Part shown: positions 8,051 to 31,548 of the stretch, piece by piece | How the letters are laid out: each line of letters begins with the position of its first letter | How positions within the stretch are numbered: position 1 is the first letter of the stretch | Assembly: GCA_934295165.1 (NCBI GenBank) | Contig: CAKRAT010000023.1 | Location: 1 to 31,702 of the forward strand | Reading direction: 5' to 3' | From: an uncultured Dorea sp. | GTDB lineage: Bacteria; Bacillota; Clostridia; Lachnospirales; Lachnospiraceae | Length of the DNA stretch: 31,702 nt | Position numbers and translations under genes: made by a program | The notes under the pieces: generated by a model | What the model was told of the DNA's origin: nothing | Database searches by the model: none | The model's input: the letters and a program-made list of their open reading frames with translations, nothing else

Positions 8051-9556
8051 TTAATCGAGATAGATCGGCGGCTCATAATCTTTGCCAAGTAATGCTTTCT
8101 TACGCTCCTGATATCCAAGAAATGCCCACTCTGTCATATCTGTCCACTGATGATTTCCACGGTCATACACCTGTACATAACCGATTCTCGCAGGATGCAT
8201 TCTTACACTATTCGATTCATATTCATGCCCGGTATATGGATTAAGTTCACCTTTACTTAAATCCTCCTCTGTGGATGTAAATAATTCTTCCTCATGTTCC
8301 TGCGCATACTTGCTCTGATATCCTGTATCATAACTTGCATTTCCATTATCTGCATTCTCATAATCAGCTGTCTCTTCTGCTGCATATGTCTCTTCTTCCG
8401 ATTCGTCCGGAAGTAATTCTTCTGCTAATTTGTCAGACTCTCCACCTTCGGAATAATCAAATTCATGATATTGGATTTCTGGTTTTTCTTCTTTTTTCTC
8501 TTCCTTTACCGGTTCCTCATGTTTTTTACGGATTCCAAAAAATGCTCTCCATCCATGCGCCTTTTTCTCCGGATCTTCCTTCTTCGGTTCCGATTCTTCC
8601 TCTTCTTCCGATTCGTCTTCCTCCGGTTCGTCTTCTTCCGGTTCATCCGCTTCCGGCTCTTTCTCCAGATCTTCCTCATACTCTGATTCTTCTATATACT
8701 CCGGCTCTTCCTTATACTCTGATTCTTCTGCATATTCCGGCTCACTCCCGTATACCGGCTCTTTCTCATACTTCGGTGCCGTTTCTATCTCAATCGCCAG
8801 TTCTTCCTCATGCTCCGGCTCTTCTTCATACTCCGATACACCTTCTATCTCAATCGCCAGTTCTTCTGTCTGTCCTTCCTCTATTTCCGGCTCATACACA
8901 GGTGCTTCTGCCTCTGGTACTTCCTCTGCCGATGCTTCCTCCGCTGCGTCTGGTTCATATACAGCTTCTTCTTTGGCAGGCACTTCCTCTTCCACTTCTT
9001 CCACCGACTCCGGCTCTTCTGCTACAGCTTCTTCCACCGGCTCCGGCTCTTCTGCTACAGCTTCTTCCACCGGCTCCTCCAGCCCTTCTGACGCTTTCTC
9101 ATTTACGAAAAAGTCAAAGATTGTCTCCTGCACATATTCCGGATCTTCCTTTACGACTTTCTTTGATTTCTTCTTACTTTTCTTCTTCTCGATCGCATCT
9201 AACTCTTTATGAATATCGACCAGTTCCCCGATCGTTATATCTCTTTCTCCCGCTCCTGTATGCGCTTCCGGCTTCTCCGGTTCCGCCGGCTTTGCGGTCT
9301 TCTGCACTTTTACAGTTTTCTCGTCACGGTCTTCATGTTCCTCTAATATATCTAAATAAAACGGGCATTCCAAGATCTTTGCGATCATACGCATATCCTG
9401 CTCCTGGAAATTATCTCTTCCGAGGCGCTGTGTCAGATTCTGACGCGACATCTTTTTTCCCGTCTGTTTTTCTATCTTTTCTGCAAGTTCTTTGATCGTC
9501 ATTCCCTTACGACTCAGGATGATCTTGACCTGTTCTCCAAATGTTAATTCCAACAT
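8051..9556 (-). CDS. XRE-type HTH protein with long acidic disordered region
   Basis: 501 residues. Residues 1-70 form a Cro/CI-like helix-turn-helix (FGEQVKIILSRKGMTIKELAEKIEKQTGKKMSRQNLTQRL). Residues about 105-430 are extremely rich in Glu, with Pro, Ala, Ser and Tyr, including PVEEAVAEEPE and EYxEEPEY repeats, and are surely disordered. The last ~60 residues (LNPYTGHEYESNSVRMHPARIGYVQVYDRGNHQWTDM) look conserved. No membrane segment. The start has AAGGAGG at ideal spacing. It is transcribed from its own promoter (9663-9691). Role unknown; one HTH plus a long acidic tail could mean a DNA-binding scaffold, but this is speculation. Large acidic content makes strong antisense pseudo-ORFs. Confidence 0.88.
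   Translation of the reverse strand: MLELTFGEQVKIILSRKGMTIKELAEKIEKQTGKKMSRQNLTQRLGRDNFQEQDMRMIAKILECPFYLDILEEHEDRDEKTVKVQKTAKPAEPEKPEAHTGAGERDITIGELVDIHKELDAIEKKKSKKKSKKVVKEDPEYVQETIFDFFVNEKASEGLEEPVEEAVAEEPEPVEEAVAEEPESVEEVEEEVPAKEEAVYEPDAAEEASAEEVPEAEAPVYEPEIEEGQTEELAIEIEGVSEYEEEPEHEEELAIEIETAPKYEKEPVYGSEPEYAEESEYKEEPEYIEESEYEEDLEKEPEADEPEEDEPEEDESEEEEESEPKKEDPEKKAHGWRAFFGIRKKHEEPVKEEKKEEKPEIQYHEFDYSEGGESDKLAEELLPDESEEETYAAEETADYENADNGNASYDTGYQSKYAQEHEEELFTSTEEDLSKGELNPYTGHEYESNSVRMHPARIGYVQVYDRGNHQWTDMTEWAFLGYQERKKALLGKDYEPPIYLD
9001..9080. repeat. 33-bp tandem repeat in the HTH gene
   Basis: Two full units (9001-9033, 9034-9066; they differ at one base) and a partial third encode the 11-residue repeat PVEEAVAEEPE. 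The period is a multiple of three. Confidence 0.9.
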
Positions 9557-15513: not shown

Positions 15514-16383
15514 TTATTCTTCCAACGCTTTCTCAACTACATCCACTGGCACTTTTAAAATTTGAGAAATTGTTTTTTTATCTTTTATACTTTCATACGC
15601 ATTTTTTATCATCTGCATTGTTACCTGTTCTGTTACCTGCTCTGTTACCTGTTCCGTTACTTGTTCCGTTACTTGTTTCCCATATGCCTGAAATTCATCA
15701 TCCATCAGCTCTCTTAATGCTTCACACATATTTTCCTTCACCTCCATCATCGCTGTCCAGTTTGCACGTGTTATCACATTCATTGCTGCCTGATACAACT
15801 TTGAATGCTTCTTCTCTTCATATGTCTTTAACAAGAATTCTATTTCCTGCTTATCCCTTATATCTTTCCGCAGACTTTGAAGCCACAAATTTTCTTCCTG
15901 ATCTAATTCTTTTGTAATCAATAACTGTATCGGAAATTCATCTCCGATTATGTAATATATCCCGGCATCTTCCTTACGAATTTCCAGATTACGATGTTTC
16001 TTCAAATGTTGTATCATCGTTCTTGGATAATGATTACATATAAAAGTAATTGTTAATTCCTGCGGAGAAATTTCAAGCACATTTTCCGTATCAGCCTGAT
16101 AAAAACAACAATAACCATAGACTTTATAAAAATCATTCACGGTCAGATAATCATCCGGACTTTTATATTCTATTATGTTGTACTTTCTAAATATTCTTCC
16201 TATGTTTTTCTGAATGGTCTCATTATCCTTTACTTTTATAATGAGTTCATCAATCTGCATTGGCTTTTTTGACAACAAATGTTCTGATTCAAATGTCAGT
16301 TTCTCACATTCCTCTTCAAATTCAATCTGTATCGACGCCTGAAATGCTGGATGCCATTCAATTCTTTTTATAGTTTCTTTCAT
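15514..16383 (-). CDS. PD-(D/E)XK-like protein with VTEQ repeats
   Basis: 289 residues. The N-terminal half resembles the Rpn/PD-(D/E)XK transposase-nuclease superfamily: D45 in MQIDELIIK, then E72-x-K74 in IIEYKSPDDYLTVNDFYKVYGY. The weaker C-terminal half is helical and charged. Four exact VTEQ repeats (about 238-253) precede a short C-terminal segment (ISQILKVPVDVVEKALEE) that resembles the end of Rpn-type proteins. Nuclease activity is inferred only. The ATG at 16383 has AAAGGAG 7 nt upstream. It stands alone between the aro and ara loci, beside a MITE-like element. Often annotated as hypothetical in Lachnospiraceae, and present in many copies. Confidence 0.75.
   Translation of the reverse strand: MKETIKRIEWHPAFQASIQIEFEEECEKLTFESEHLLSKKPMQIDELIIKVKDNETIQKNIGRIFRKYNIIEYKSPDDYLTVNDFYKVYGYCCFYQADTENVLEISPQELTITFICNHYPRTMIQHLKKHRNLEIRKEDAGIYYIIGDEFPIQLLITKELDQEENLWLQSLRKDIRDKQEIEFLLKTYEEKKHSKLYQAAMNVITRANWTAMMEVKENMCEALRELMDDEFQAYGKQVTEQVTEQVTEQVTEQVTMQMIKNAYESIKDKKTISQILKVPVDVVEKALEE
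15621..15676. repeat. 12-bp tandem repeats (VTEQ)
   Basis: Four to five units near TTACCTGTTCTG run through 15621-15676 and encode VTEQ repeats. Variants differ at C/T positions, so the array is old enough to have diverged. Copy change keeps the frame. Confidence 0.9.
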
Positions 16384-16993: not shown

Positions 16994-17695
16994 TTATTTC
17001 CCCGGCTGTCCATAATAAGCATTCGCTCCATGTTTTCTAAAGTAATGCTTATCCTGTAACTCCTGTGGTGCAGGTTTTACGTCCGGATTGATCTGTTCGC
17101 ATCTTGCTGCCATCTTGGCAACTTCTTCTAATACAACTGCATTATGAACTGCTTCGTGAGCATCTTTTCCCCATGTAAATGGTCCGTGGTTTTTGCAAAG
17201 TACTGCTGGTGTTGCAACATAATCCAGATCATCTTCATCGAATCTGTCTGCGATCAGGACTCCTGTGTTCTTCTCATATGCTTCATCAATCTCTTCTTTT
17301 GTAAGATTTCTTACACATGGAACTGTTCCATACAGATAATCTGCATGTGTAGTTCCATAACAAGGGATTCCTCTTCCTGCCTGAGCCCAGCTTGTTGCCC
17401 ATGGAGAATGTGTATGTACAACTCCACCGATGTTCGGGAATCTGTTGTAGAGTTCTACGTGTGTTGCTGTATCAGAAGATGGATTTAATTCTCCTTCTAC
17501 TTTATTACCCTGAAGGTCTACAACTACCATATCTTCCGGTGTTAACTTGTCATACTCAACTCCACTTGGTTTGATAACGAAAAGACCTTTTTCACGGTCG
17601 ATTCCGCTTACATTTCCCCATGTAAATGTGATCAGTCCATATTTTGGAAGAAGCATGTTTGCTTCATATACTTCTTTTTTTAATTCTTCCAGCAT
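16994..17695 (-). CDS. araD: L-ribulose-5-phosphate 4-epimerase
   Basis: Converts L-ribulose 5-phosphate to D-xylulose 5-phosphate, the last arabinose-specific step. Class II aldolase fold: [11 protein letters not shown] at the start, zinc ligands H94 and H96 ([12 protein letters not shown]) and H170 (KNHGPFTWG); E. coli AraD uses H95, H97 and H171. Also typical is [11 protein letters not shown]. Length 233 aa is normal. The ATG has AAAGGAG about 10 nt upstream. Third gene of araA-kinase-araD. A stable hairpin in the 83-bp gap (17724-17757) may affect its mRNA. Confidence 0.95.
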
Positions 17696-17778: not shown

Positions 17779-19371
17779 TTACAGATCCGCACAAGCTCTG
17801 CGCTCTACATCCAGACCTTTCTTATATGTTTCCATAAATGCTTCGTATCCAGCTACGCCTTCCGGATCCGGATCGATTCTGCTTCCGGCGTCACTTCCGA
17901 ATACCTTGTTCTTCAGGTAATCTTCCAGCTTTTCGTCTTCTGTACGTTTTACCATGTATTCAGCCAGTATAGCCATTCCCCATGGACCGCCTTCTCCTGC
18001 AGTCTCCATAACTACAACCGGTGTGTTGATTGCATCAGCAAGAACCTTCTGTCCGACACCTTTTGTCTTGAAAAGTCCACCATGTCCGAGAACGGTATCA
18101 ATTGCAACACCCTCGTCTTTTGTTAAGATATCCATTCCGACTTTGATAACACCAAGTGCTGTGTACAGATGTGATCTCATGAAGTTAGCCAGATTGAATT
18201 TTGTCTCTGGTGTTCTTACTACCATTGGACGTCCTTTTTCTACATTTGTAATAGGCTCTCCTGCATAGTTACCGTAAGAAAGGATTCCACCACAATCAGC
18301 ATCACCTTCCAGTGCTTTATTGTAAAGTGTACCATACATCTGGTTCATGTCTACGTCTGCTCCGATAGAATCAGCGAATTCTTTGAACAGATTTACCCAT
18401 GCATTCAGGTCAGTTGTTCCGTTATTAGAATGTACCATGGCAACCAGGCTTCCGTCAGGTGTTGTAACCATATCGATCTCTGTATGTAAATCTTTCAGAG
18501 GTTTCTCAAGTACAACCATAGAGAAGAATGATGTACCTGCGGAAATGTTGCTTGTACGCTGTGCTACACTGTTTGTAGCTACCATACCTGTTCCTGCATC
18601 TCCTTCTGGCGGGCAAAGTGGAATTCCTGCTTCCAGGTTACCTGTAGGATCAAGTTTCTTTGCTCCTTCTTCTGTCAGAATACCTGCTGCGTCTCCAGCT
18701 ACCAGAACCTTAGGAAGAATTTCTTTTACTGTCCATGGATAGTTCTCACCTTCGATCAGCTTATCAAACTTCTGGATCATCTCTTCGTCGTAATCTTTTG
18801 TATTCATGTCGATTGGGAACATTCCGGATGCGTCTCCTACGCCCAGAACCTTCTCACCTGTCATCTGCCAGTGAATATATCCTGCAAGAGTTGTCATGAA
18901 TGCGATATCTTTTACATGATCTTCTTTGTCCAGGATACACTGATACAGATGTGCGATACTCCATCTCAGTGGAATATTATACTGGAACAGATCTACCAGC
19001 ACTTCAGAAGCTTTTCCTGTATTGCTGTTTCTCCATGTCTGGAATGGTGCAAGAAGTTTTCCTTCTTTATCAAATGCCATATATCCGTGCATCATAGCAC
19101 TGAAGCCGATTGCTCCGAGTTTCTTAATTGTTACTCCGTATTCTTTCTGTACATTTTCTGCCATATCGCGGTAGCTGTCCTGAAGTCCTGTCCAGATATC
19201 ATCCAGGGAATATGTCCACAATCCGTTCTCATAACGGTTCTCCCATGTGTGGCTTCCGGATGCGATTGGATTATGTTCCTCATCAATCAGTACTGCTTTA
19301 ATTCTTGTAGAACCAAATTCGATTCCAAGATACGCTTTCCCGCTTTCAATGATCTCTTTTACATTGCTCAT
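17779..19371 (-). CDS. FGGY carbohydrate kinase, probable L-ribulokinase
   Basis: 530 residues. Motifs of the FGGY family: phosphate-1 site [18 protein letters not shown] at the start, catalytic Asp in [22 protein letters not shown] and the adenosine site [12 protein letters not shown]. Located between araA and araD, so it should phosphorylate L-ribulose. Sequence differs from the classical E. coli/Bacillus AraB; non-canonical ribulokinases (for example AraK of Clostridium acetobutylicum) are known, so I give the role but no symbol. The start has AGGAGG upstream. The araA-kinase gap holds a hairpin at 19430-19466. Confidence 0.85.
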
Positions 19372-21057: not shown

Positions 21058-21087
21058 ATTATAAAAAATACGGACCTGCTTTCTCAA
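21058..21087 (-). promoter_or_regulatory. araA: Promoter of araA operon
   Basis: Minus strand: -35 TTGAGA (21082-21087), 18-bp spacer, -10 TATAAT (21058-21063). Start expected near 21051. Confidence 0.7.
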
Positions 21088-21175: not shown

Positions 21176-22222
21176 ATGAATTTATCCGATTTTTGCCGCC
21201 GGATCACAGGACCCAACACAAGGCTTCTCCCGGAAAACCATAAATTAGGCGCAAGGCTTGTCTGTCCGGAATATTCCAAGTCCGTCCAGGAAGTCAAAAC
21301 CTATCCGTTACTCGGTCAGGACCGCAGTTTCTTATTATGCTGGAACTTCGATTCTCCCGGCAATCTCTATGCAACGATGATGCCGTCCCCGGAGAACTTC
21401 TGTTATCATTATTCCTTTTCCGACGGGGAATACACACAGCTTCATACCCATGATTATCTGGAGCTTTCTTACGTTGTAGAAGGGGAATTTCATCAGAGGA
21501 TACTGAATAAGGACGTTGTATTCCACAAAGGAGACCTCTGTCTCATCGACAAGAACTGTCTGCATCAGGACTGTCTGACAGACCAGTCCGGAGTCGTTCT
21601 TTTTATTGGAATTGCCAATGATATGTTCACAGAGATCATGAACGAGAACAGCACCCCGCAGAAATTACTTTCTTTCCTGCAGTCTGCCTTGTTAAAGCAA
21701 AAAGACGTTCAGCAGTTTCTCCATTTCAGACCGTCCGCCGGATCCAGCGAGTTTCTCGATGACAGTCTGTTATTGCTTTTAAAAGAATCATATTCCCCGG
21801 ACACTGGTTCCAGATATATTACGAAAGGGTTATTGTTCCGAATCTTCCGGATCTTAAGTACACAATATGATTTCTCGCTTTCCAAAGAGCAGAAGCAGAC
21901 TATGAACTGGATCGTATTTGAAGAAATTTCCGATTATATCCGGACACATTACAAGGACATTGCAATTCAGGATCTTGTGAATGAATTTCACTACCAGGAA
22001 GATTATTTCAACCGGCTGATCAAGCGTAAGACAGGACTTACCTATTCCGCATATGTCCAGCAGATCCGTCTGGAGAAGGCCGAACATCTGCTGGTATCTA
22101 CAGACAAAAGCATCGAGGAGATTGCAGATTCTGTCGGCTATCATAACAAAGGTTATTTTTATAAATTATTTCAGGAAAAATACGAACAGACACCTGCAAA
22201 TTACAGGCGTCATACAAGATAA
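21176..22222 (+). CDS. AraC-family transcriptional regulator
   Basis: 348 residues. A cupin sensing domain is at about 85-150: HTHDYLELSYVVEGEFHQRI and FHKGDLCLIDKNCLHQD. C-terminal double helix-turn-helix of the AraC type (about 250-348): IAIQDLVNEFHYQEDYFNRLIKRKTGLTY and IEEIADSVGYHNKGYFYKLFQEKYEQTPANYRR. Divergent from araA, so it probably controls the ara operon in response to arabinose. It differs from the GntR/LacI-type AraR of Bacillus. A strong AAGGAGG site precedes it. Followed by a bidirectional terminator. Confidence 0.9.
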   Translation: MNLSDFCRRITGPNTRLLPENHKLGARLVCPEYSKSVQEVKTYPLLGQDRSFLLCWNFDSPGNLYATMMPSPENFCYHYSFSDGEYTQLHTHDYLELSYVVEGEFHQRILNKDVVFHKGDLCLIDKNCLHQDCLTDQSGVVLFIGIANDMFTEIMNENSTPQKLLSFLQSALLKQKDVQQFLHFRPSAGSSEFLDDSLLLLLKESYSPDTGSRYITKGLLFRIFRILSTQYDFSLSKEQKQTMNWIVFEEISDYIRTHYKDIAIQDLVNEFHYQEDYFNRLIKRKTGLTYSAYVQQIRLEKAEHLLVSTDKSIEEIADSVGYHNKGYFYKLFQEKYEQTPANYRRHTR

Positions 22223-22325: not shown

Positions 22326-23354
22326 TTAGTCCTTTTTCTTCATACTTCCGATTACTGACTGTAATACAATGAAGAAGCACAGTAATGCGGAAAGTGCGAT
22401 ACGTACCCACCAGCTGGAAAGTGTTCCCTGTGTGGTGATAAGACTTGAGATTGTTCCTTTGATCAGTACACCAAAGACTGTACCGAATGGTGTTCCTACA
22501 CCACCACTTAACAGTGTACCACCGATAACGGAAGCTGAGATTGCATCCATCTCAAGACCTTTTGCCTGCTCTACGAATCCGGAACAGCTGTTTAAGCAGA
22601 AGAGGAATCCACCGCATCCTGCAAGAAGTCCGTCCAGAACATATGCTTTGAATTTTGTTTTCTTTACATTTAATCCCATCATCATAGCACTCTGTGCATT
22701 TCCACCGATGGCATATACTTCACGTCCGAATTTTGTAAATTTCATGATAACCGCAATGATAATAAAGATCAGTATTGCGATAATAACAGTCGGATATATG
22801 TACGCCGGAATGAATTTTCCACGACGGCTGTAAGATCCGATTGGAAGGTAAATCTTATAGTTAGCCCATGCAAGGAATGTCTTATTCTTGATAGAGATCA
22901 TATCTGTACTGATGATTGATGTCATACCACGTCCGAAGAACATACCTGCAAGTGATACGATGAATGGCTGGATCTCAAGATAAGATACCAGGAATCCCTG
23001 AACGATACCAAAGAGGAGGCCGATCAGAAGTGCAATAGCAACTGCCATGTAAGCACTCATGCCTTTCTTTTCCATATCATATGCACAAAGCATACATACC
23101 AACGCTGTTACTGAACCGACAGAGATATCAATACCGCCTGTGATCATTACGATCGTCTGACCCATTGCGATAACCAGAAGTCCCGCATTGGAAATGAACA
23201 GGTTCAGGAACATCTGTGGTTTTGCGAATCCTTTGTCAGCAAATACAATCATACCTGCTGCATACATTACGATGAATAAAAGGACAGTTACCATAAGAAG
23301 GAAACTATTTCCGTTAATTTTCATTCCCGGTTTGTTTAATGATTTCTTTTTCAT
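22326..23354 (-). CDS. yjfF: Sugar ABC transporter permease (YjfF-like)
   Basis: 342-residue integral membrane permease of the RbsC/AraH class with 8-10 predicted spans. Motifs: MITGGIDISVGSVTAL, the family's conserved loop, and GGNAQSAMMMGL. Last gene of the importer operon, matching the second permease of the E. coli ytfQRT-yjfF galactofuranose importer. The start codon overlaps the stop of the upstream permease (TAATG) and GGAGG lies 9 nt upstream, so translation is coupled. Symbol is by family and position. Confidence 0.88.
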   Translation of the reverse strand: MKKKSLNKPGMKINGNSFLLMVTVLLFIVMYAAGMIVFADKGFAKPQMFLNLFISNAGLLVIAMGQTIVMITGGIDISVGSVTALVCMLCAYDMEKKGMSAYMAVAIALLIGLLFGIVQGFLVSYLEIQPFIVSLAGMFFGRGMTSIISTDMISIKNKTFLAWANYKIYLPIGSYSRRGKFIPAYIYPTVIIAILIFIIIAVIMKFTKFGREVYAIGGNAQSAMMMGLNVKKTKFKAYVLDGLLAGCGGFLFCLNSCSGFVEQAKGLEMDAISASVIGGTLLSGGVGTPFGTVFGVLIKGTISSLITTQGTLSSWWVRIALSALLCFFIVLQSVIGSMKKKD

Positions 23355-24421
23355 TAGTTATTTCCTCCTTCCACTGCTGCTTTATTTGCACGTTTCATTT
23401 TCTGGTTTGTCATAAATTTCTGGAATACAGGGCTCTGTAAAGTAACAATGATAATAACTACGATTGCCTTGTAAACCGGCAGCTGGTCAGCTGATACATT
23501 CATTGCATATAAAGTTGTTGTAAGTGCCTGAATCGTATATGCTCCGATTACAGATCCCATTAAGCTGAATTTACCACCGCCAAGAGCGTTACCACCAAGA
23601 GCAACTGCCAGGATGGCATCCATTTCAAGGTTCAGACCAATGTTGTTGGCATCTGCGGAATAGATACGGCTGGATGCTACGATTCCGGCAATACCTGCTA
23701 ATACACCACAGATTACATATGTAAGGAACTTAATCATTGTTGAGTTAAGACCTACCAGTCTGGATGCTGTACCGTTGATACCTACACTTTCAATATACAG
23801 ACCAAGTGCTGTTTTCTTTAATACAAGATACGTAATCACTACAACAATAATTGCAATAAAGATTGGTGTCGGAACCGGGCATTTTCCAATATATCCACCG
23901 TATACTTTATAAGAGTTTACACGGATATATGTAATCTGTCCGTCTGTGATCAGCTGTGCAACACCACGGCCTGCTGTATACAGGATCAAGGTAGCTACCA
24001 TCGGCTGGATGTTCAGCTTCGCTACGAGGAAACCATTGAATGCTCCGCATAATGCAGATGCGGCAACCGCCGCTAACATAGCAACAATAATCGGTGCTGC
24101 AAGTGAGTTAACAGATACCTCTCCACCTGAAAGGATCTGACAGCATACAGCTGCTGCAACCGCCATGACTGCACCAACACTGATGTCCTGTCCTCCGGAT
24201 GCTGCTGTAACCAGCGTCATACCTACGGCAAGGATTACTAATTCTGATGCACGGTTTATAACGTCTACGATGTATCCGTACAAAACTCCGTTGTTAATTG
24301 ATACTTTGAAGAAGCCCGGAGTTGTGATTACGTTAACCAAAAGTACAGCTATGAGGCACACGATTGGCAGAAACAGTCTCATAGATGTAAGCTTTTTCCA
24401 TCCTGACTTTGTATTACTCAT
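23354..24421 (-). CDS. ytfT: Sugar ABC transporter permease (YtfT-like)
   Basis: 355-residue integral membrane permease with a hydrophobic first span (LFLPIVCLIAVLLVNVITT) and the family segments SGGQDISVGAVMAVAAAVC and VGINGTASRLVGLNS. First of the two permeases. The ATG at 24421 is chosen because AGGAGGTGG stands just upstream; it overlaps the ATPase stop by 8 nt, indicating coupled translation. A GTG at 24430 is in frame but too close to that site. Forms a heterodimer channel with the YjfF-like permease. Confidence 0.88.
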   Translation of the reverse strand: MSNTKSGWKKLTSMRLFLPIVCLIAVLLVNVITTPGFFKVSINNGVLYGYIVDVINRASELVILAVGMTLVTAASGGQDISVGAVMAVAAAVCCQILSGGEVSVNSLAAPIIVAMLAAVAASALCGAFNGFLVAKLNIQPMVATLILYTAGRGVAQLITDGQITYIRVNSYKVYGGYIGKCPVPTPIFIAIIVVVITYLVLKKTALGLYIESVGINGTASRLVGLNSTMIKFLTYVICGVLAGIAGIVASSRIYSADANNIGLNLEMDAILAVALGGNALGGGKFSLMGSVIGAYTIQALTTTLYAMNVSADQLPVYKAIVVIIIVTLQSPVFQKFMTNQKMKRANKAAVEGGNN

Positions 24422-25931
24422 TATCTCCACCTCCTGCGATTGCTTTCATAATGCCTTCCTGAGACAGCTCATCTCCGCTGATCTCTCCGACTTTCTTTCC
24501 GTCTCTTAATACACCCATTCTTGAACATGTACGGAGCATCTCTTCCACTTCGGAAGAAATGAATGTAACTGCCATTCCCTGATCCGCAAGATCAAGAACC
24601 AGTTTCTGAATCTCTGTCTTTGTTCCGATATCAATACCACGTGTCGGCTCATCAAGAATCAGATAATCAGGATTTGTAAGCAGCCATCTTCCGATGATTA
24701 CTTTCTGCTGGTTACCACCTGAAAGACTCTTAATAGGAGTTTCACGGCTTGCTGTCTTAATCTGCAGCATTTCGATATATTTATCTGCTGCGTCTTCCAT
24801 TTCTTTCTTACTTAATGGATGGAACATACCTCTTTTTGCCTGTAATGCAATGATGATATTCTCTCTTACTGACAGGTCAGCAATGATTCCATCTTTTTTA
24901 CGGTCTTCCGGAAGATATGCCATACCAAGTTTCATGGCATCCAGTGGAGAATTGATCTTCACTTCTTTTCCGTTTACTTTTATTTTTCCGCTGTCTGGTT
25001 TATCTGCACCATAGATTGCACGAACCAGTTCGGAACGTCCTGATCCAAGAAGTCCTGTAAGTCCGACAACTTCTCCCTTATTTACAGTGAAGTTGAATGG
25101 ACGGATGCTTCCTTTTCTTCCGATTCCTTCTGCTTCAATAACCGGAACAAATTCTTTCAGTTCTGCATGCTCGCCCTTGATATCAGCAAGATCATCGAAA
25201 TCTTTACCCATCATCTTAGCAACCAGCATAACTCTTGGAAGGTCTTTTGTTGTATATTCTCCAACCAGTTCACCATTTCTGAGAACTGTGATACGGTCAC
25301 ATACTGCATATACCTGCTCCAGGAAATGTGTAACGAAGATGATTCCAACACCCTGGGCTTTCAAACGGTTCATCAATACGAATAATTTTTCTACTTCATC
25401 ATCATCCAGAGATGATGTAGGCTCATCAAGAATCAGTACACGACAGTTCATATCAACCGCACGTGCGATAGCGATCATCTGCTGTTTTGCAAGTGAACAC
25501 TCTTCCAGTTTGTCTGTAGCCTTTGCATCAATCTGCAGATCCTTTAACAGCTCTGTAGATTTCTTGTTCATTGTCTTCCAGTCGATAAACCCTGCTTTTC
25601 TCGGTTCACGTCCGATAAACAGATTTTCTGCAACTGTCAGGTTTGGACAAAGATTGACTTCCTGATATACAGTACTGATTCCATTGTCCTGTGCGTCCTG
25701 TGGAGATCTGTTAACGATCGGTGCATCTTTTCCTTCCATTTTAATCTCTCCAGACTCAAATGGATGCACACCGGTAAGTACTTTAATCAAAGTAGACTTT
25801 CCTGCACCATTTTCTCCCATCAGAGCGTGGATTTCTCCTTTACGGAGAGTAAAATCAACATGTTGTAAGGCTTTGACACCTGGAAACGTCTTTGAGATAT
25901 CTCTCATTGTTAATACAACATTATTTTCCAT
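24414..25931 (-). CDS. ytfR: Sugar ABC transporter ATPase (YtfR-like), two NBDs
   Basis: 505 residues, two fused nucleotide-binding domains as in the RbsA/AraG class. First domain: Walker A GENGAGKST (about 38-46), Walker B VLILDEPTSSLD. Second domain: degenerate Walker A GLLGSGRSELVRA, signature SLSGGNQQK, Walker B YLILDEPTRGID. The ribosome binding site is weak (GGTGA). It follows the binding protein gene by 134 bp, which contain a GC-rich hairpin likely to lower read-through. Confidence 0.93.
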   Translation of the reverse strand: MENNVVLTMRDISKTFPGVKALQHVDFTLRKGEIHALMGENGAGKSTLIKVLTGVHPFESGEIKMEGKDAPIVNRSPQDAQDNGISTVYQEVNLCPNLTVAENLFIGREPRKAGFIDWKTMNKKSTELLKDLQIDAKATDKLEECSLAKQQMIAIARAVDMNCRVLILDEPTSSLDDDEVEKLFVLMNRLKAQGVGIIFVTHFLEQVYAVCDRITVLRNGELVGEYTTKDLPRVMLVAKMMGKDFDDLADIKGEHAELKEFVPVIEAEGIGRKGSIRPFNFTVNKGEVVGLTGLLGSGRSELVRAIYGADKPDSGKIKVNGKEVKINSPLDAMKLGMAYLPEDRKKDGIIADLSVRENIIIALQAKRGMFHPLSKKEMEDAADKYIEMLQIKTASRETPIKSLSGGNQQKVIIGRWLLTNPDYLILDEPTRGIDIGTKTEIQKLVLDLADQGMAVTFISSEVEEMLRTCSRMGVLRDGKKVGEISGDELSQEGIMKAIAGGGDNE

Positions 25932-26064: not shown

Positions 26065-27132
26065 TTAGTATGCACGTTTGTCAAGAATATCCTGTGTGAT
26101 CTTTGTTACATCATAATCAGTACCATCTACTGTTACTTTCTTAACTGTATCATCAAATGCGAACATTTCTTCATCTACATATGCTTTCTTGTCAACATCT
26201 TCGCCGTTTTCAAGTTTCTTGATGATTTCTTCTACACGTGGTCCGTGTAATGGGTTACACTCTGTATCGCAGATGATCTTTCCAGATAATGTATCTGTCA
26301 GACCAGCGTTTGTTGTATCGAATGACATTACAAGGATATCTCCATCTGGTCCTACTGTCTTACCAGCAGCTTCGATTGCATCGATTGCTCCGAATGCTTC
26401 GTTATCATTCTCACAGTAAACTACGTTGATGTTGTCGTGCTGTTTCAGCATAGACTCCATAACTTCCTGTCCTTTAGCCTGTGTGAATTCACCTGTCTGC
26501 TGTGCTACGATGTTCCATCCATATTCTTTAGCAGCTGCTTCAAGACCTTCTGTACGTCCAATCTGAGCTGAAGCTCCGATTGTTCCCTGAATGTGAGCGA
26601 TGTTAACTTCTTTCATTCCCTTAGCTTCTGCATAAGCATTCAGCCATTCGCAAGCTTTCTGACCTTCCATCTTGAAGTTAGATCCTACCCATGCTGTGTA
26701 AAGACTGTCATCAGATACATCGATCATACGGTCAACGATGATTACCGGGATATCAGCATCTTTTGCTTCTTTCAGTACTGTGTCCCATCCTGTCTCTGTT
26801 ACAGGTGCAAGTACGATGTAGTCAACATCCTGCTGGATGAAGTTACGGATTGCTGTGATCTGATTCTCCTGTTTCTGCTGAGCATCATCAAAGATCAGTT
26901 TGTATCCGTTCTTTTCACTGAATGTGCTCTTCATTGATTCAGAGTTTGCTGTACGCCAGTCAGATTCAGCACCTACCTGTGAGAAACCAATTGTAATTTC
27001 ATCACTTGAACTTGAGCTTGAGCTTGATTTTGAGCTGTCAGAGCTGCTGTCCCCACCTTTGTTTCCGCATCCAACTGCTAATGATGCTACCATTGTAGCT
27101 GCGAGTAACGCTGTAATCACTTTTCTTTTCAT
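26065..27132 (-). CDS. ytfQ: Sugar-binding lipoprotein of ABC importer (YtfQ-like)
   Basis: 355 residues. Signal peptide with a lipobox at LAVGC (about residue 22), then a Ser-rich linker (about 28-47). Periplasmic-binding-protein-like fold with family segments IGFSQVGAESDWRTANSESM, FIQQDVDYIVLAPVTETGWDTVLKEA, VIIVDRMI, VYCENDNEAFGAIDAI, MSFDTTNAGL and ECNP. Resembles E. coli YtfQ (galactofuranose), and also the AraU type described as arabinose binding. In the ara locus, arabinose in its furanose form is the likely ligand. An AGGAGG site precedes the ATG. Very similar to the anchored sensor protein at 30403-31479. Confidence 0.9.
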   Translation of the reverse strand: MKRKVITALLAATMVASLAVGCGNKGGDSSSDSSKSSSSSSSSDEITIGFSQVGAESDWRTANSESMKSTFSEKNGYKLIFDDAQQKQENQITAIRNFIQQDVDYIVLAPVTETGWDTVLKEAKDADIPVIIVDRMIDVSDDSLYTAWVGSNFKMEGQKACEWLNAYAEAKGMKEVNIAHIQGTIGASAQIGRTEGLEAAAKEYGWNIVAQQTGEFTQAKGQEVMESMLKQHDNINVVYCENDNEAFGAIDAIEAAGKTVGPDGDILVMSFDTTNAGLTDTLSGKIICDTECNPLHGPRVEEIIKKLENGEDVDKKAYVDEEMFAFDDTVKKVTVDGTDYDVTKITQDILDKRAY

Positions 27133-27279: not shown

Positions 27280-28767
27280 TTATGAAAAAGGTTGATTTTT
27301 TTGTGCTGCCATTACAACGGTTATTTTTGTACCGTCATTTTCCACACTTTCCAGAGACAATCCATACTGTTCTCCGTAATAATAGCGGATTCTGCGGTTT
27401 ACATTGCCAATTCCAAATCCATCAATATTTTTATCACCTTTTTCTTTTTTGATACTTTCCTGCAGCTTTTTCAGCACTTCTTCTGTCATACCTTTTCCGT
27501 CATCCTGCACAACGAATACCAGGCACTCCCCATCCAGCTTTCCGGTAATCTTTATGGTACCTCCGCCGCGCTTATTCTTCAATCCATGGTAAAGTGCATT
27601 CTCGATCAGCGGTTGTAACGTCAGCTTTGGAAGCATGAATTCTTCCATATCTTCTGCAATGTCAATCTCATACTTCATGATATCCTGATATCTGAATTGC
27701 TGGATCTTCAGATAACTTTCAATATGAGACCGTTCTTCCCTTACCGTGATAAAATCCCGGCCTTTACTCAAGGTCGTTCGGAAAAAGTCCGAAAGTGCCG
27801 TAACCATTGATACAACTTCATCCTTACGGTTTTCCTCTGCCAGCCACACGATCGCATCCAGCGTGTTGTACAGAAAATGAGGATTGATCTGTGCCTGTAA
27901 CAGTTTCGTCTCCGCAATATGCAGATTCTTCTGCTGCTGCTTGATATCTTCCACCAGTTCACCGATTTCCTGCGTCATATCATTAAAACTTCTGGTCAGT
28001 ACTGCAATTTCATCCGTATTGCTTTCTTTTGTCTGGACTGTAAAATCTCCTTCCGCAACCTTCTGCGTCATCTTACACAACTTCTGTATCGGTCTGGTTA
28101 CACTTTTCGCCGCCTGCATTGTCAGGAAAAATGCCAGAAGTATTGCAGCAACCGATATCCCGATACATATCATAAAAGTTCTGGTATTTCTGGCATCCAG
28201 TTCTGATTTTACATTTGCATAATTCGTTGTCTCTACATATATGTAATCCTGTATCCCCTGTTGGATCAGAGATGTCAGCATATAGACATTATCATTCAGA
28301 TAGATCATCTTGTCTTCATATGCTGCGCCGGTTTTGATTGCATGATCCATCTCTTCTACACAGCCTTTTAATGATTTCAGACTGTTCTTCAGACGCTTGA
28401 TCTGGTTCCTGTTACTGTCTACAGTTGCCATATCCGATAATTTATCACATGTTTCCGACAACTCCTTAATATATTCATACGGATTAACCGTCAGAATACC
28501 ATTTACGGTTGTCTCGCCGTCCCCGAGGTTTTCCATATCTTTCTTTCCGATCACTGCCAGATACATACTGTAGTCCATGCGCTCTTTAAAGTCTCTCGCA
28601 TACATATTCGCATACGCTACACTTTTTGTGATCTGCGCATATGCCGAAGTTGCGTTCGTAAGTGATGCCAGCAGGTATGTTACTACTAATATCATAGGAA
28701 TGAATACCGCCAGTGATATCCCTGCCAGTCTCTGGTTTAGCGAAACATTTCCATATATCTTTTTCAT
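27280..28767 (-). CDS. Sensor histidine kinase, YesM/LytS type
   Basis: 495-residue membrane kinase. First span at about 15-36, extracellular helical sensor to about 197, second span about 198-220, HAMP linker, then His_kinase with the phospho-accepting His in NPHFLYNTLDAI (about 297) and HATPase with NALYHGLKN, VQDDGKGM and GFGIGNVNRRI. The ATG at 28767 is 2 nt after the response regulator stop (TAA), so the two are coupled. In known three-component systems the extracellular domain contacts the sugar-loaded anchored binding protein. No terminator is seen after the gene, so read-through into the importer operon is possible. Confidence 0.9.
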   Translation of the reverse strand: MKKIYGNVSLNQRLAGISLAVFIPMILVVTYLLASLTNATSAYAQITKSVAYANMYARDFKERMDYSMYLAVIGKKDMENLGDGETTVNGILTVNPYEYIKELSETCDKLSDMATVDSNRNQIKRLKNSLKSLKGCVEEMDHAIKTGAAYEDKMIYLNDNVYMLTSLIQQGIQDYIYVETTNYANVKSELDARNTRTFMICIGISVAAILLAFFLTMQAAKSVTRPIQKLCKMTQKVAEGDFTVQTKESNTDEIAVLTRSFNDMTQEIGELVEDIKQQQKNLHIAETKLLQAQINPHFLYNTLDAIVWLAEENRKDEVVSMVTALSDFFRTTLSKGRDFITVREERSHIESYLKIQQFRYQDIMKYEIDIAEDMEEFMLPKLTLQPLIENALYHGLKNKRGGGTIKITGKLDGECLVFVVQDDGKGMTEEVLKKLQESIKKEKGDKNIDGFGIGNVNRRIRYYYGEQYGLSLESVENDGTKITVVMAAQKNQPFS

Positions 28768-28769
28768 TT

Positions 28770-30401
28770 TTATTCTTTTCCTCTTGCCCTGAATTCTTTT
28801 GGTGTACAATTTTGTGTCTTCTTAAATATATAGCTGAAATAATGTGGATCTTTATATCCTACTTCATATCCGATTTCCGATGTTTTCATAGCGGAACACA
28901 TCAAAAGTTCTTTTGCTTTATCCATTCGTATCTCTGTAAGGTATTCCACGAATGTTTTTCCTACTTCCTTACTGAAAATAGAGCTGAAATAACTCGGACT
29001 CATCCCGACTTCTGCCGCTATTGTATTCAGTGATATTTCATCCGACATATAAGTTTCCCTGATCTGGCCTTTTGCGACCTCTATGATATCCGAATACCTT
29101 CTTCCGCTTACCGCATCACGTACGCCGATGACTTTCTTCAGAAGCATCTTCATATAATTTTTGATTTCCTCCGGTGTCTGAATAATCTTCATGCTGTTTT
29201 TCAGTTCTTCTGACTGATCTTTCATTTCCGATTCTGCACCTTCGATCCTTTCACAGAACGACATCATCACTATATATGCATCCATAATGATATACTGCCG
29301 CATCAGCACAGATTTCAGATTATCTTCCGGCAGTTCGTTGACATATACTTCTACAAATTCATCAATCTCATTTTCTACCCCGTTATTCAGGAATTTTTCC
29401 AGCATCGTTCTGGTATTTTCTATCTCACCGAAGCTTTTAATCTCTATATTATCCAGTTCATCTACACTTTGCACCACACGGATATCTTTCACAGATATGA
29501 TCTGATTAAGTTCCATTGTGAATCTTGCGGACAATGCATGCTCCGCTTCCCGGAATGATTCCTGCAATTCTCTGAGTCTTGCTACCGGCCGGCCGACTCC
29601 GCCGAAATATGCGACCACCGGATATTTCCCCATAATATTCTCCAGTGCGGCCGACAGTTCTGTTACTCTTCCTTCCATCTGCTCTTCATTATCAGCTGTC
29701 AGAAGAAAGGCCCATCCTTCTACACCTCTCTGGAACTCGAATACATACTCCAGTTTTTCCATCAGCACCTCAATCGCATGCTCCGCCTCTACTAACAACT
29801 CTCCGACTTTTCTATCTCCTTCTTCCAGAGTGAAGCGGAACAGAAGCAGGTTATACATTCCCGCACTAAGATTCATCCCATACTTTTTTCCTGTTTCCAG
29901 CGCTTCCGCCATCGACAGGTTACCCGCCATGATCTGCTCAAAGAATTTTTGTTTTTCATGTTCTACGTTTTCACGCATTTCTTCCATATATTTGTGAACC
30001 AGATCTTTGTCTTCTTTTTCCTGACGTATGGATTCGCTTACACCATTTAATACCTCCAAAAGCTTGCCCGAAGATATTGGTTTTAACAGATATTCAACAA
30101 CACCTAGTCTTATCGCCTTCTTTGCATAATCAAAATCATCATATCCGCTTAAGATCAGTATCTTAATATTCGGAAGTTCTTTTTTCACCAGCTCACACAG
30201 TTCCAGTCCGTCCATGAACGGCATACGGATGTCTGTGATCAGAATATCCGGCTTCTCTTTTACGATCATCGGATATGCCAGCTCTCCGTCACTTGCTTCC
30301 CCGCAAAATATGTATCCTTCATTCTCCCAGTCAATACTGTTCTTTATTCCTCTTCTTATAACCAGTTCGTCTTCCACAAGAAATACTTTTATCTTACTCA
30401 T
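28770..30401 (-). CDS. Response regulator, YesN/AraC type
   Basis: 543 residues. N-terminal receiver domain (E10-D11, phospho-acceptor D57 in ILITDIRMPFMDGLEL), a long middle region with coiled-coil character (about 125-430), and a C-terminal AraC helix-turn-helix (about 435-543: LNTIAAEVGMSPSYFSSIFSKEVGKTF and IGYEVGYKDPHYFSYIFKK). Begins 1 nt after the stop of the anchored binding protein and is followed by the kinase. Likely activates the importer promoter near 27200, inferred from the paralogue relation and gene order. Confidence 0.92.
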   Translation of the reverse strand: MSKIKVFLVEDELVIRRGIKNSIDWENEGYIFCGEASDGELAYPMIVKEKPDILITDIRMPFMDGLELCELVKKELPNIKILILSGYDDFDYAKKAIRLGVVEYLLKPISSGKLLEVLNGVSESIRQEKEDKDLVHKYMEEMRENVEHEKQKFFEQIMAGNLSMAEALETGKKYGMNLSAGMYNLLLFRFTLEEGDRKVGELLVEAEHAIEVLMEKLEYVFEFQRGVEGWAFLLTADNEEQMEGRVTELSAALENIMGKYPVVAYFGGVGRPVARLRELQESFREAEHALSARFTMELNQIISVKDIRVVQSVDELDNIEIKSFGEIENTRTMLEKFLNNGVENEIDEFVEVYVNELPEDNLKSVLMRQYIIMDAYIVMMSFCERIEGAESEMKDQSEELKNSMKIIQTPEEIKNYMKMLLKKVIGVRDAVSGRRYSDIIEVAKGQIRETYMSDEISLNTIAAEVGMSPSYFSSIFSKEVGKTFVEYLTEIRMDKAKELLMCSAMKTSEIGYEVGYKDPHYFSYIFKKTQNCTPKEFRARGKE

Positions 30402-30402
30402 A

Positions 30403-31479
30403 CTAATACATCCTTCCCTCTACAATCTTGTCCGTAACCACTGTCACATTCCATCTTGCCCTTTCTATTGCAATTATCGGAATTGATTTGTCCCGGGTAT
30501 ATATTCTGTCGCCGATGTAATTCTCTTTATTCACATCTCTTTTATATTCCAGTTTTCTGATAATCTTTTCTATCTTATCTCCAAACTCCGGATTACACTC
30601 TACATCTACTGCAATCTTTCCTTTTTGTACTGCCGCAAGACCTTCCTTTGTCGCATCAAATGAGATCACCTGTATACCATCTTCTCCGACCTTCCCACCG
30701 CTTTCTTCTATTGCATTGATCGCACCAAGTGCTTCGCTGTCATTTTCACAGTATACCATATCGATATTATCGTATTTCTTTAAAAATTCTTCCATTACTT
30801 CATGACTTTTTGCCTGTGTAAATTCTCCGGTCTGTTGTTCCAGAATGTTCCATCCATTCTTTTCGGCTGCTTCCTCCAGTGCTCTTGTTCTGCCTATCTG
30901 TGCTGTCGCTCCTTCCGTTCCCATAATATGTACAATGTTTACTGTTTTATAATTATGATTCTCTATATACTGTTCCATCCAGTTGCAGGCTTTCTGTCCT
31001 TCCTGATAAAAATCCGCACCGATCCAGGCCGTATATAAGCTTTCATCCGATACCCTGATCTGTCTGTCCGCAATAATTACCGGAATACCGGCTTGCTCTG
31101 CTTCTTTCAGTACAGTCTCCCATCCGGTCTCTACGATTGGTGCAAGGACAATATAATCCACATCCTGTTGTATGAATTCACGTATCGACTTGATCTGCTG
31201 TTCCTGTTGCTGCTGTGCATCTTTGAAGATCAGATCATATCCTTTTTTCGTAGTAAATGTCTTTTTCATGGAGATGGAATTGCCCGTCCTCCACTCTGAT
31301 TCTGCTCCCAGCTGTGAAAAACCAATGGATATCAGAGACTGACGTTCATCATCTTTCGTTCTGTTCAGTACTTTATTTCTATCCGCAAGAATGAGTCCTC
31401 CTATAATTGCCATTATCGTCAATCCTATCGTAATAATAACCCATAACCACTCTTTCTTCTCATTCTCCGTTTTTTCCAT
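30403..31479 (-). CDS. Membrane-anchored sugar-binding sensor (AraP/XylFII-like)
   Basis: 358 residues. One N-terminal span (about 11-32: WLWVIITIGLTIMAIIGGLIL) without a lipobox Cys keeps it on the membrane. The rest aligns along its length with the importer lipoprotein (IGFSQLGAESEWRTGNS, FIQQDVDYIVLAPIVETGWETVLKEA, VYCENDSEALGAI, VECNP), so the two probably bind the same sugar. The ATG at 31479 has GGAGGG 8 nt upstream; an in-frame start at 31527 lacks one. First gene of a unit with the response regulator and kinase, separated by 1 and 2 nt. The layout matches Geobacillus AraPST (arabinose) and Clostridium XylFII-LytS-YesN (xylose). Confidence 0.85.
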   Translation of the reverse strand: MEKTENEKKEWLWVIITIGLTIMAIIGGLILADRNKVLNRTKDDERQSLISIGFSQLGAESEWRTGNSISMKKTFTTKKGYDLIFKDAQQQQEQQIKSIREFIQQDVDYIVLAPIVETGWETVLKEAEQAGIPVIIADRQIRVSDESLYTAWIGADFYQEGQKACNWMEQYIENHNYKTVNIVHIMGTEGATAQIGRTRALEEAAEKNGWNILEQQTGEFTQAKSHEVMEEFLKKYDNIDMVYCENDSEALGAINAIEESGGKVGEDGIQVISFDATKEGLAAVQKGKIAVDVECNPEFGDKIEKIIRKLEYKRDVNKENYIGDRIYTRDKSIPIIAIERARWNVTVVTDKIVEGRMY

Positions 31480-31518: not shown

Positions 31519-31548
31519 ATTATACACTAATTATAGAAGAACTTCTTC
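31519..31548 (-). promoter_or_regulatory. Promoter and palindrome of the sensor operon
   Basis: Minus strand: -10 TATAAT at 31519-31524. The -35 position has no consensus hexamer and is covered by a palindrome GAAGAA-C-TTCTTC (31536-31548, given on the plus strand). This suggests an activator-dependent or repressed promoter. Confidence 0.45.

Follow-up and report, generated by a model that had tools for sequence, protein, structure and literature searches.

What is the function of a second sugar-binding protein that is anchored in the membrane and encoded beside a furanose importer already possessing its own, and where did it come from? The question is raised by a locus of an uncultured Dorea sp. 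(GCA_934295165.1, contig CAKRAT010000023.1, positions 1-31,702), and "the window" refers here to this whole stretch of 31,702 nt. The best overall explanation, to which we assign a probability of about 0.62, is that the locus encodes a three-component sugar sensor, in which a receptor of GafA type, an old duplicate, has been kept together with a response regulator (RR) and a sensor kinase (HK). The parts of the locus are given in Table 1.

Table 1. Features of the sensor and arabinose locus (positions within the window)
Feature	Position	Strand	Evidence
Receptor, TM-anchored GafA/YtfQ-type sugar-binding protein, 358 aa	30403..31479	-	Peripla_BP_4 4.5e-40
YesN-type response regulator (RR), receiver + AraC-type HTH, 543 aa	28770..30401	-	Response_reg 7.4e-25, HTH_18 2.5e-22, Asp57
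YesM-type sensor kinase (HK), 495 aa	27280..28767	-	PF06580 1.1e-27, HAMP 3.9e-11, HATPase_c 6.1e-10
Kinase outer (extracytoplasmic) domain with TM edges, proposed docking surface	28165..28671	-	
Importer binding protein (GafA/YtfQ type), lipoprotein	26065..27132	-	Peripla_BP_4 4.8e-39; Cys22
Importer ATPase (YtfR/GafB type)	24414..25931	-	YtfR model 680 bits, cut-off 850, best among models listed
Importer permease 1 (YtfT type)	23354..24430	-	YtfT model 293 bits, cut-off 535
Importer permease 2 (YjfF type)	22326..23354	-	YjfF model 314 bits, cut-off 363
Divergent AraC-family regulator with cupin domain	21176..22222	+	HTH_18 7.4e-22, Cupin_2 3.8e-07
L-arabinose isomerase AraA	19499..21004	-	787 bits, cut-off 622
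FGGY sugar kinase, probable ribulokinase by context	17779..19371	-	FGGY_C 7.2e-36; NCBIfam kinase models all below cut-off
L-ribulose-5-phosphate 4-epimerase AraD	16994..17695	-	393 bits, cut-off 257

The receptor gene starts with the ATG at 31479, a GTG lying further out in frame at 31527, and is separated by 1 nt from the regulator gene, which is in turn separated by 2 nt from the kinase gene (ATG at 28767). These gaps on one strand lead us to infer co-transcription, so that a binding-protein gene (SBP) lies in one predicted transcription unit with the two signalling genes in the order SBP-RR-HK. The receptor contains a single hydrophobic stretch, 19 residues long and starting at residue 14 (mean KD 2.63), and lacks any Cys up to residue 60, while the binding protein of the four-gene importer, which is of YtfQRT-YjfF (Gaf) type, carries Cys22 in AVGC. 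The preliminary description was correct in both the spacing of the genes and the membrane-anchored, lipobox-free character of the receptor.

The receptor and the importer binding protein are paralogues, as had been proposed, with 184 of 310 residues identical (59%, E 7e-136). The PDB chains nearest to the receptor are GafA (E 6e-64 to 1e-52), and the top four matches in a structure comparison are likewise GafA entries. The receptor is filed as GafA-type rather than as YtfQ itself because it scores 234 bits against the NCBIfam YtfQ equivalog cut-off of 510 bits, which the importer protein of the window (257 bits) also misses. Nine positions assumed to form the sugar site (F54, W63, R64, D138, R139, R197, N246, D275, and E294) are identical in the two proteins, which upholds the earlier claim of a common ligand site, and also in three solved GafA chains. 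A Phe and a Trp among them, together with the Asp and Arg, belong to the sugar site described for GafA (PMC10191376); the others were presumptively assigned from ribose-binding protein. Across 71 importers and 22 receptors, eight of the nine positions are invariant, and F54 is present in 99% and 100%, respectively. By family, fold, and sugar-site positions, the receptor is thus a GafA/YtfQ-type protein and a predicted sugar binder. Among the sequences collected, P0009, P0010, P0014, and P0015 are candidate receptor-importer chimeras.

The signalling proteins belong to the YesM/YesN families, the kinase combining PF06580 with HAMP and the regulator a receiver with an AraC-type HTH. The kinase has two TM helices (TM-like stretches at 16 and 198), an outer domain, HAMP, His_kinase, and HATPase, and the phospho-acceptors are present in both proteins (His297 and Asp57). 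The fold of the outer domain would fit that of LytSN in the XylFII-LytSN complex, although designed bundles score equally high, and Foldseek gave no match for this domain at an E value of 0.001 or better. From these parts, a pathway can be proposed in which the anchored protein would close on an extracellular sugar and dock on the adjacent kinase at its four-helix outer domain. His297 would then pass a phosphoryl group to Asp57, and the regulator, through its AraC-type domain, could increase transcription of the neighbouring importer genes and perhaps also that of araA and the genes around it. The ligand is most likely L-arabinofuranose, judging from araA and araD, which come after the importer genes. 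Of the GafA systems described in PMC10191376, only those of clade II are linked to araBAD.

The origin of the receptor was addressed by phylogeny. Nineteen receptors, from the window, Dorea, Eubacterium, and metagenomes, form one clade (support 100/100), while the importer protein of the window groups with P0051 and P0041 (100/99). In the preliminary description, the sensor appeared to have arisen by duplication of the binding protein of this same importer; the receptor would then be a recent, local duplicate re-anchored by a TM helix. The 59% identity, the adjacency, and the common sugar-site positions would suit such an event, but AU tests under the model used reject grouping with the window importer group both for the window receptor with P0001 (p 9.9e-59) and for ten window-type receptors (p 0.0006). 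In addition, the longest identical DNA run between the two genes is only 15 nt, and in two other loci (L031 and L019) the receptor-RR-HK unit stands beside another importer; a recent local origin is therefore extremely improbable. The two proteins do branch far apart where a local duplication is concerned, yet both are still inside one family. Grouping all 19 receptors with the window importer group is not rejected (p 0.35), a result compatible with a single, older origin from an importer protein of GafA type. Such a duplication would predate the separation of the lineages leading to the window, Dorea, and Eubacterium, and the receptor line would since have been inherited with the RR-HK pair and combined with different importers.

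The functional alternatives can be weighed against the linkage of receptor and kinase. Distances between receptors correlate with those between kinases (Mantel r 0.74, p 0.0002, 9 pairs), and the correlation is as high for the kinase core (r 0.75) as for the outer domain (r 0.73), showing co-inheritance rather than contact. The kinases of the window, L031, and L019 form one clade in the kinase-only tree, weakly supported (SH-aLRT 80); this clade was not found in the RR+HK tree, where the grouping is not rejected (p 0.42). Retention of the sugar site and the GafA fold would also be expected of a second binding protein serving the importer without any signalling role. Against this stand the position of the gene 1 nt before the regulator and outside the importer operon, the relatives preceding an RR-HK pair beside a different importer, and the tracking of the kinase by the receptor. 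Moreover, of the positions conserved to at least 95% in importers, 25 are retained in fewer than half of the window-type receptors, a relaxation to be expected of proteins that no longer dock on a permease, and a purely transport-related role is very unlikely. It is less improbable, although still unlikely, that the window kinase senses the importer GafA or the sugar directly, with the anchored protein acting just as a modulator that might, for example, keep the kinase inactive until sugar binds. The outer domain is indeed conserved in relatives lacking a receptor gene, and the CuaSR kinase alone is reported to give some response without CuaD (PMC10384115). The receptor-kinase congruence argues against this possibility, though only indirectly, as does the binding of the Cua kinase to CuaD and not to CuaA (PMC10384115). 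We give similarly low odds to a sensor that responds chiefly to a different sugar, in particular D-galactofuranose, or to both furanoses. In favour of such a response, N67 of the receptor and N63 of the importer protein agree with MSMEG_1712, described as binding both L-Araf and D-Galf (PMC10191376), rather than with GafASw, which has a Phe there. Close to the pocket, the window-type receptors also have G66 where importers have A, and G or E62 where they have D. Against it, the neighbouring genes serve L-arabinose catabolism.

Besides the equal correlation of the receptor with the kinase core, the lack of a Foldseek match for the outer domain, and the equally high scores of designed bundles, two observations weigh against the three-component explanation itself. 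The first is that most of the relatives listed have no receptor gene. In 59 of the best 80 loci, a similarity-ranked set and not a frequency, an RR-HK pair precedes a Gaf importer and is not itself preceded by a receptor gene; the count was 60 before L035, where the split regulator is preceded by a diverged binding protein, was removed from this class. A further scan covered 7999 scored candidates and lists 120 of them. For 19 such loci, 17 upstream genes were inspected by eye, and none was binding-protein-like. The kinase family can hence work without a receptor, and in these loci the role of kinase co-receptor may fall to the GafA of the importer. On a larger kinase tree, the receptor label requires 3 changes, counted over the 28 labelled rows of 43; 14 metagenome rows and L035 were left out of the count. 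A tentative history is possible though not favoured by the odds: in the relatives lacking a receptor gene, the importer GafA would be the co-receptor of the same kinase domain, and one kinase lineage would have passed the role to a TM-anchored GafA duplicate, so that the loci would record the stages before and after a dual-use protein was split. The kinase would then have been kept while importers were swapped (L031 and L019), and the receptor lost (L046, L047, and L072) or moved off the kinase (L116 and L061, one genome). The second observation concerns a putative regulator box, TC[TC]GT[TA]T, present in 16 of 20 kinase-importer gaps of relatives, where mononucleotide shuffles lead one to expect 0.48 (L119 and L013, whose gaps are <100 nt, were excluded from the original 22), and absent from the 147-nt gap of the window. 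The window has this box 70 nt before araA, and among the 21 araA upstream regions from other loci it occurs only in L022, at -255; no claim is built on it.

A sensor with a binding protein distinct from that of the importer, here encoded by two genes in separate clades, looks like a kind already known, with a GafA-type receptor and the order SBP-RR-HK. The layout had been equated with those of AraPST and XylFII-LytS-YesN, which is right for the parts and needs qualification for the gene order, SBP-RR-HK in the window. AraPST of Geobacillus stearothermophilus comprises an arabinose-linked binding protein, a kinase, and a regulator beside an arabinose importer, and is likened to the window sensor by parts, not by sequence. 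XylFII-LytS-YesN of Clostridium beijerinckii (PDB 5xsj, 5xss, and 5xsd) has the same kinds of parts, whereas XylFII is only distantly related to the receptor (5xss E 1.3e-07, against 6e-64 for GafA chains), the gene order differs from SBP-RR-HK, and a different sugar is expected. The Geobacillus importer is a CUT2 type encoded by araEGH (PMC4194401), in contrast to the four Gaf genes of the window, and two binding proteins are reported for G. stearothermophilus (PMC10384115). Similarly, CuaDSR of Ruminiclostridium cellulolyticum uses a second binding protein dedicated to sensing, and CuaD with its kinase and regulator acts on the adjoining importer operon (PMC10384115). CuaD is, however, a lipoprotein for cellobiose from a different binding-protein family, and the order, by name, is SBP-HK-RR (PMC10384115). 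The GafABCD and YtfQRT-YjfF furanose importers supply the family of the window importer and the family, fold, and sugar-site positions of the receptor, but GafA is described as a transport protein (PMC10191376), and the titles and abstracts searched contained no GafA-type sensor receptor.

Sensors with a second binding protein used only for sensing are known one by one, and how they arise is not. The kinase of the present locus belongs to one family that, in related gut bacteria, is accompanied by a receptor gene in some loci but not in others, adjoining the same kind of furanose importer. This makes it testable whether, in loci lacking a receptor, the importer protein signals to the kinase, and whether the duplicate took over that role. 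A sensor for the furanose form would be predicted to report arabinose freshly released from plant fibre.

The preliminary description was right about the layout: a binding protein that is anchored and free of a lipobox is followed by a YesN-type regulator and a YesM-type kinase, with spacings of 1 nt (receptor to regulator) and 2 nt (regulator to kinase), and the receptor-regulator-kinase set is likely to be a three-component sensor. The receptor begins with a single hydrophobic stretch and has no early Cys, while the importer protein carries a lipobox with Cys22; for the hydrophobic stretch, a cleavable signal peptide in place of a transmembrane (TM) anchor is possible. The importer ATPase and two permeases come after the importer binding protein on the minus strand, and araA, an FGGY kinase gene and araD form a group beyond the divergent AraC-family gene. 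One study describes GafABCD as an importer, with araBAD linkage in clade II (PMC10191376).

Features of the window, with strand and remarks
Feature	Position	Strand	Remark
Receptor	30403-31479	minus	first in gene order
Regulator	28770-30401	minus	after receptor
Kinase	27280-28767	minus	after regulator
Importer binding protein	26065-27132	minus	147 nt past kinase
AraC-family gene	21176-22222		divergent; between sensor/importer genes and araA
TCCGTAT	21068-21074	minus	70 nt upstream of araA; TATAAT-like stretch 3' of it; resembles box preceding importers of relatives
Kinase between araA and araD	17779-19371	minus	below every NCBIfam kinase cut-off, ribulokinase included; probably a non-classical ribulokinase
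289-aa ORF	15514-16383	minus	no Pfam/NCBIfam match at E 0.001; overlapped by opposite-strand ORF; may not be a gene
501-aa ORF	8051-9556	minus	no Pfam/NCBIfam match at E 0.001

The proposal that the receptor arose by local duplication of the window's importer gene proved wrong. In a 100-row tree, the check proposed for it, the receptor falls within a 22-row clade (97/92) and the importer protein groups with two other proteins, P0051 and P0041 (100/99). Placement with the window importer group was rejected by the AU test for the receptor together with P0001 (p 9.9e-59) and for ten window-type receptors (p 0.0006). It was not rejected for all 19 receptors (p 0.35), which form a single clade (100/100) in a 38-row tree; metagenome rows were counted as receptors by N-terminus and tree position, and two of them, P0020 and P0023, contain SSGC, a possible lipobox. 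These sequence comparisons are consistent with a single early origin of the receptor line, from an importer lineage that the trees do not single out. Twenty-five positions conserved in at least 95% of 71 importers are retained in fewer than half of 12 window-type receptors, including a segment C-terminal to ECNP (importer L295, H296, P298, and R299), and their loss may be read as release from permease contact.

Four metagenome relatives of the window's two binding proteins (P0009, P0010, P0014, and P0015) join a receptor-type N-terminus to an importer-type C-terminus at differing junctions, as expected from either deletion between two paralogues or assembly errors. Further odd forms of the locus (P0126, P0132, P0142, P0209, P0004, and P0006) include a regulator-kinase fusion, a receptor carrying an insert, and a kinase fused to an importer ATPase end or an integrase-like piece; these may be real rearrangements or assembly errors.

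Receptor and kinase distances are correlated (Mantel r 0.74, p 0.0002) over nine pairs, namely the window, L031, L019, and six metagenomic pairs inferred from identical longest-contig sizes in two protein searches (5034, 15168, 17896, 141623, 7445, and 23006 nt). Correlation with the receptor is 0.75 for the kinase core and 0.73 for the outer domain, which indicates co-inheritance, not contact. For importer protein and kinase at 44 receptorless loci r is 0.33, a different, wider set that gives no strict control. In the kinase tree, the nine receptor-bearing rows all lie inside one 28-row clade (95/89) that also contains L046, L047, L072, L061, and L119, each without an adjacent receptor; one gain with losses and a few gains both fit.

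The genome scan found at least 80 loci. Among the 80 matches listed, 59 have regulator, kinase and Gaf protein without an upstream binding-protein gene; the automated count was 60, from which L035 was removed, since the split regulator there does have a binding protein ahead of it, TM-anchored and GafA-like but diverged. This protein (L035:5271-6608, Coprococcus comes), which stands before the split regulator and kinase, is strongly diverged and has a long low-complexity insert, and Asn-Asn replaces its sugar-site Asp-Arg pair. The remaining twenty loci comprise seven with <1 kb of upstream sequence, three with the regulator unseen, five with the kinase unseen, three with other layouts (L003, L077, and L079), and two (L019 and L031) at which a TM receptor, regulator and kinase stand ahead of an importer of another type (L031 importer protein, 124 bits against the YtfQ model). 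In genome G010, a receptor-clade protein adjoins araA (L116), with no regulator or kinase match in the 19.5 kb stretch that contains it, and regulator, kinase and importer occupy a separate locus (L061). GafA-like accessory proteins lie 3' of another importer type, itself following regulator and kinase, at L077, L079, L117, L120, L126, L128, and L135; several contain SQLGAESDWRSAN, and they fall in the wider receptor clade (92/85). GafA matches at E 1e-50 numbered one in 16 and two or three in 3 of 19 whole genomes searched. When importers and receptors are pooled, 96 of 397 genomes sampled from the family contain a match at E 1e-80.

Separate binding proteins for sensing and transport are described in PMC10384115 for C. 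beijerinckii, G. stearothermophilus, and R. cellulolyticum; no GafA-type sensor receptor appeared in titles and abstracts of the open-licence literature searched. Of greater interest is the occurrence of a single kinase family both with and without the receptor gene, alongside the same kind of importer.
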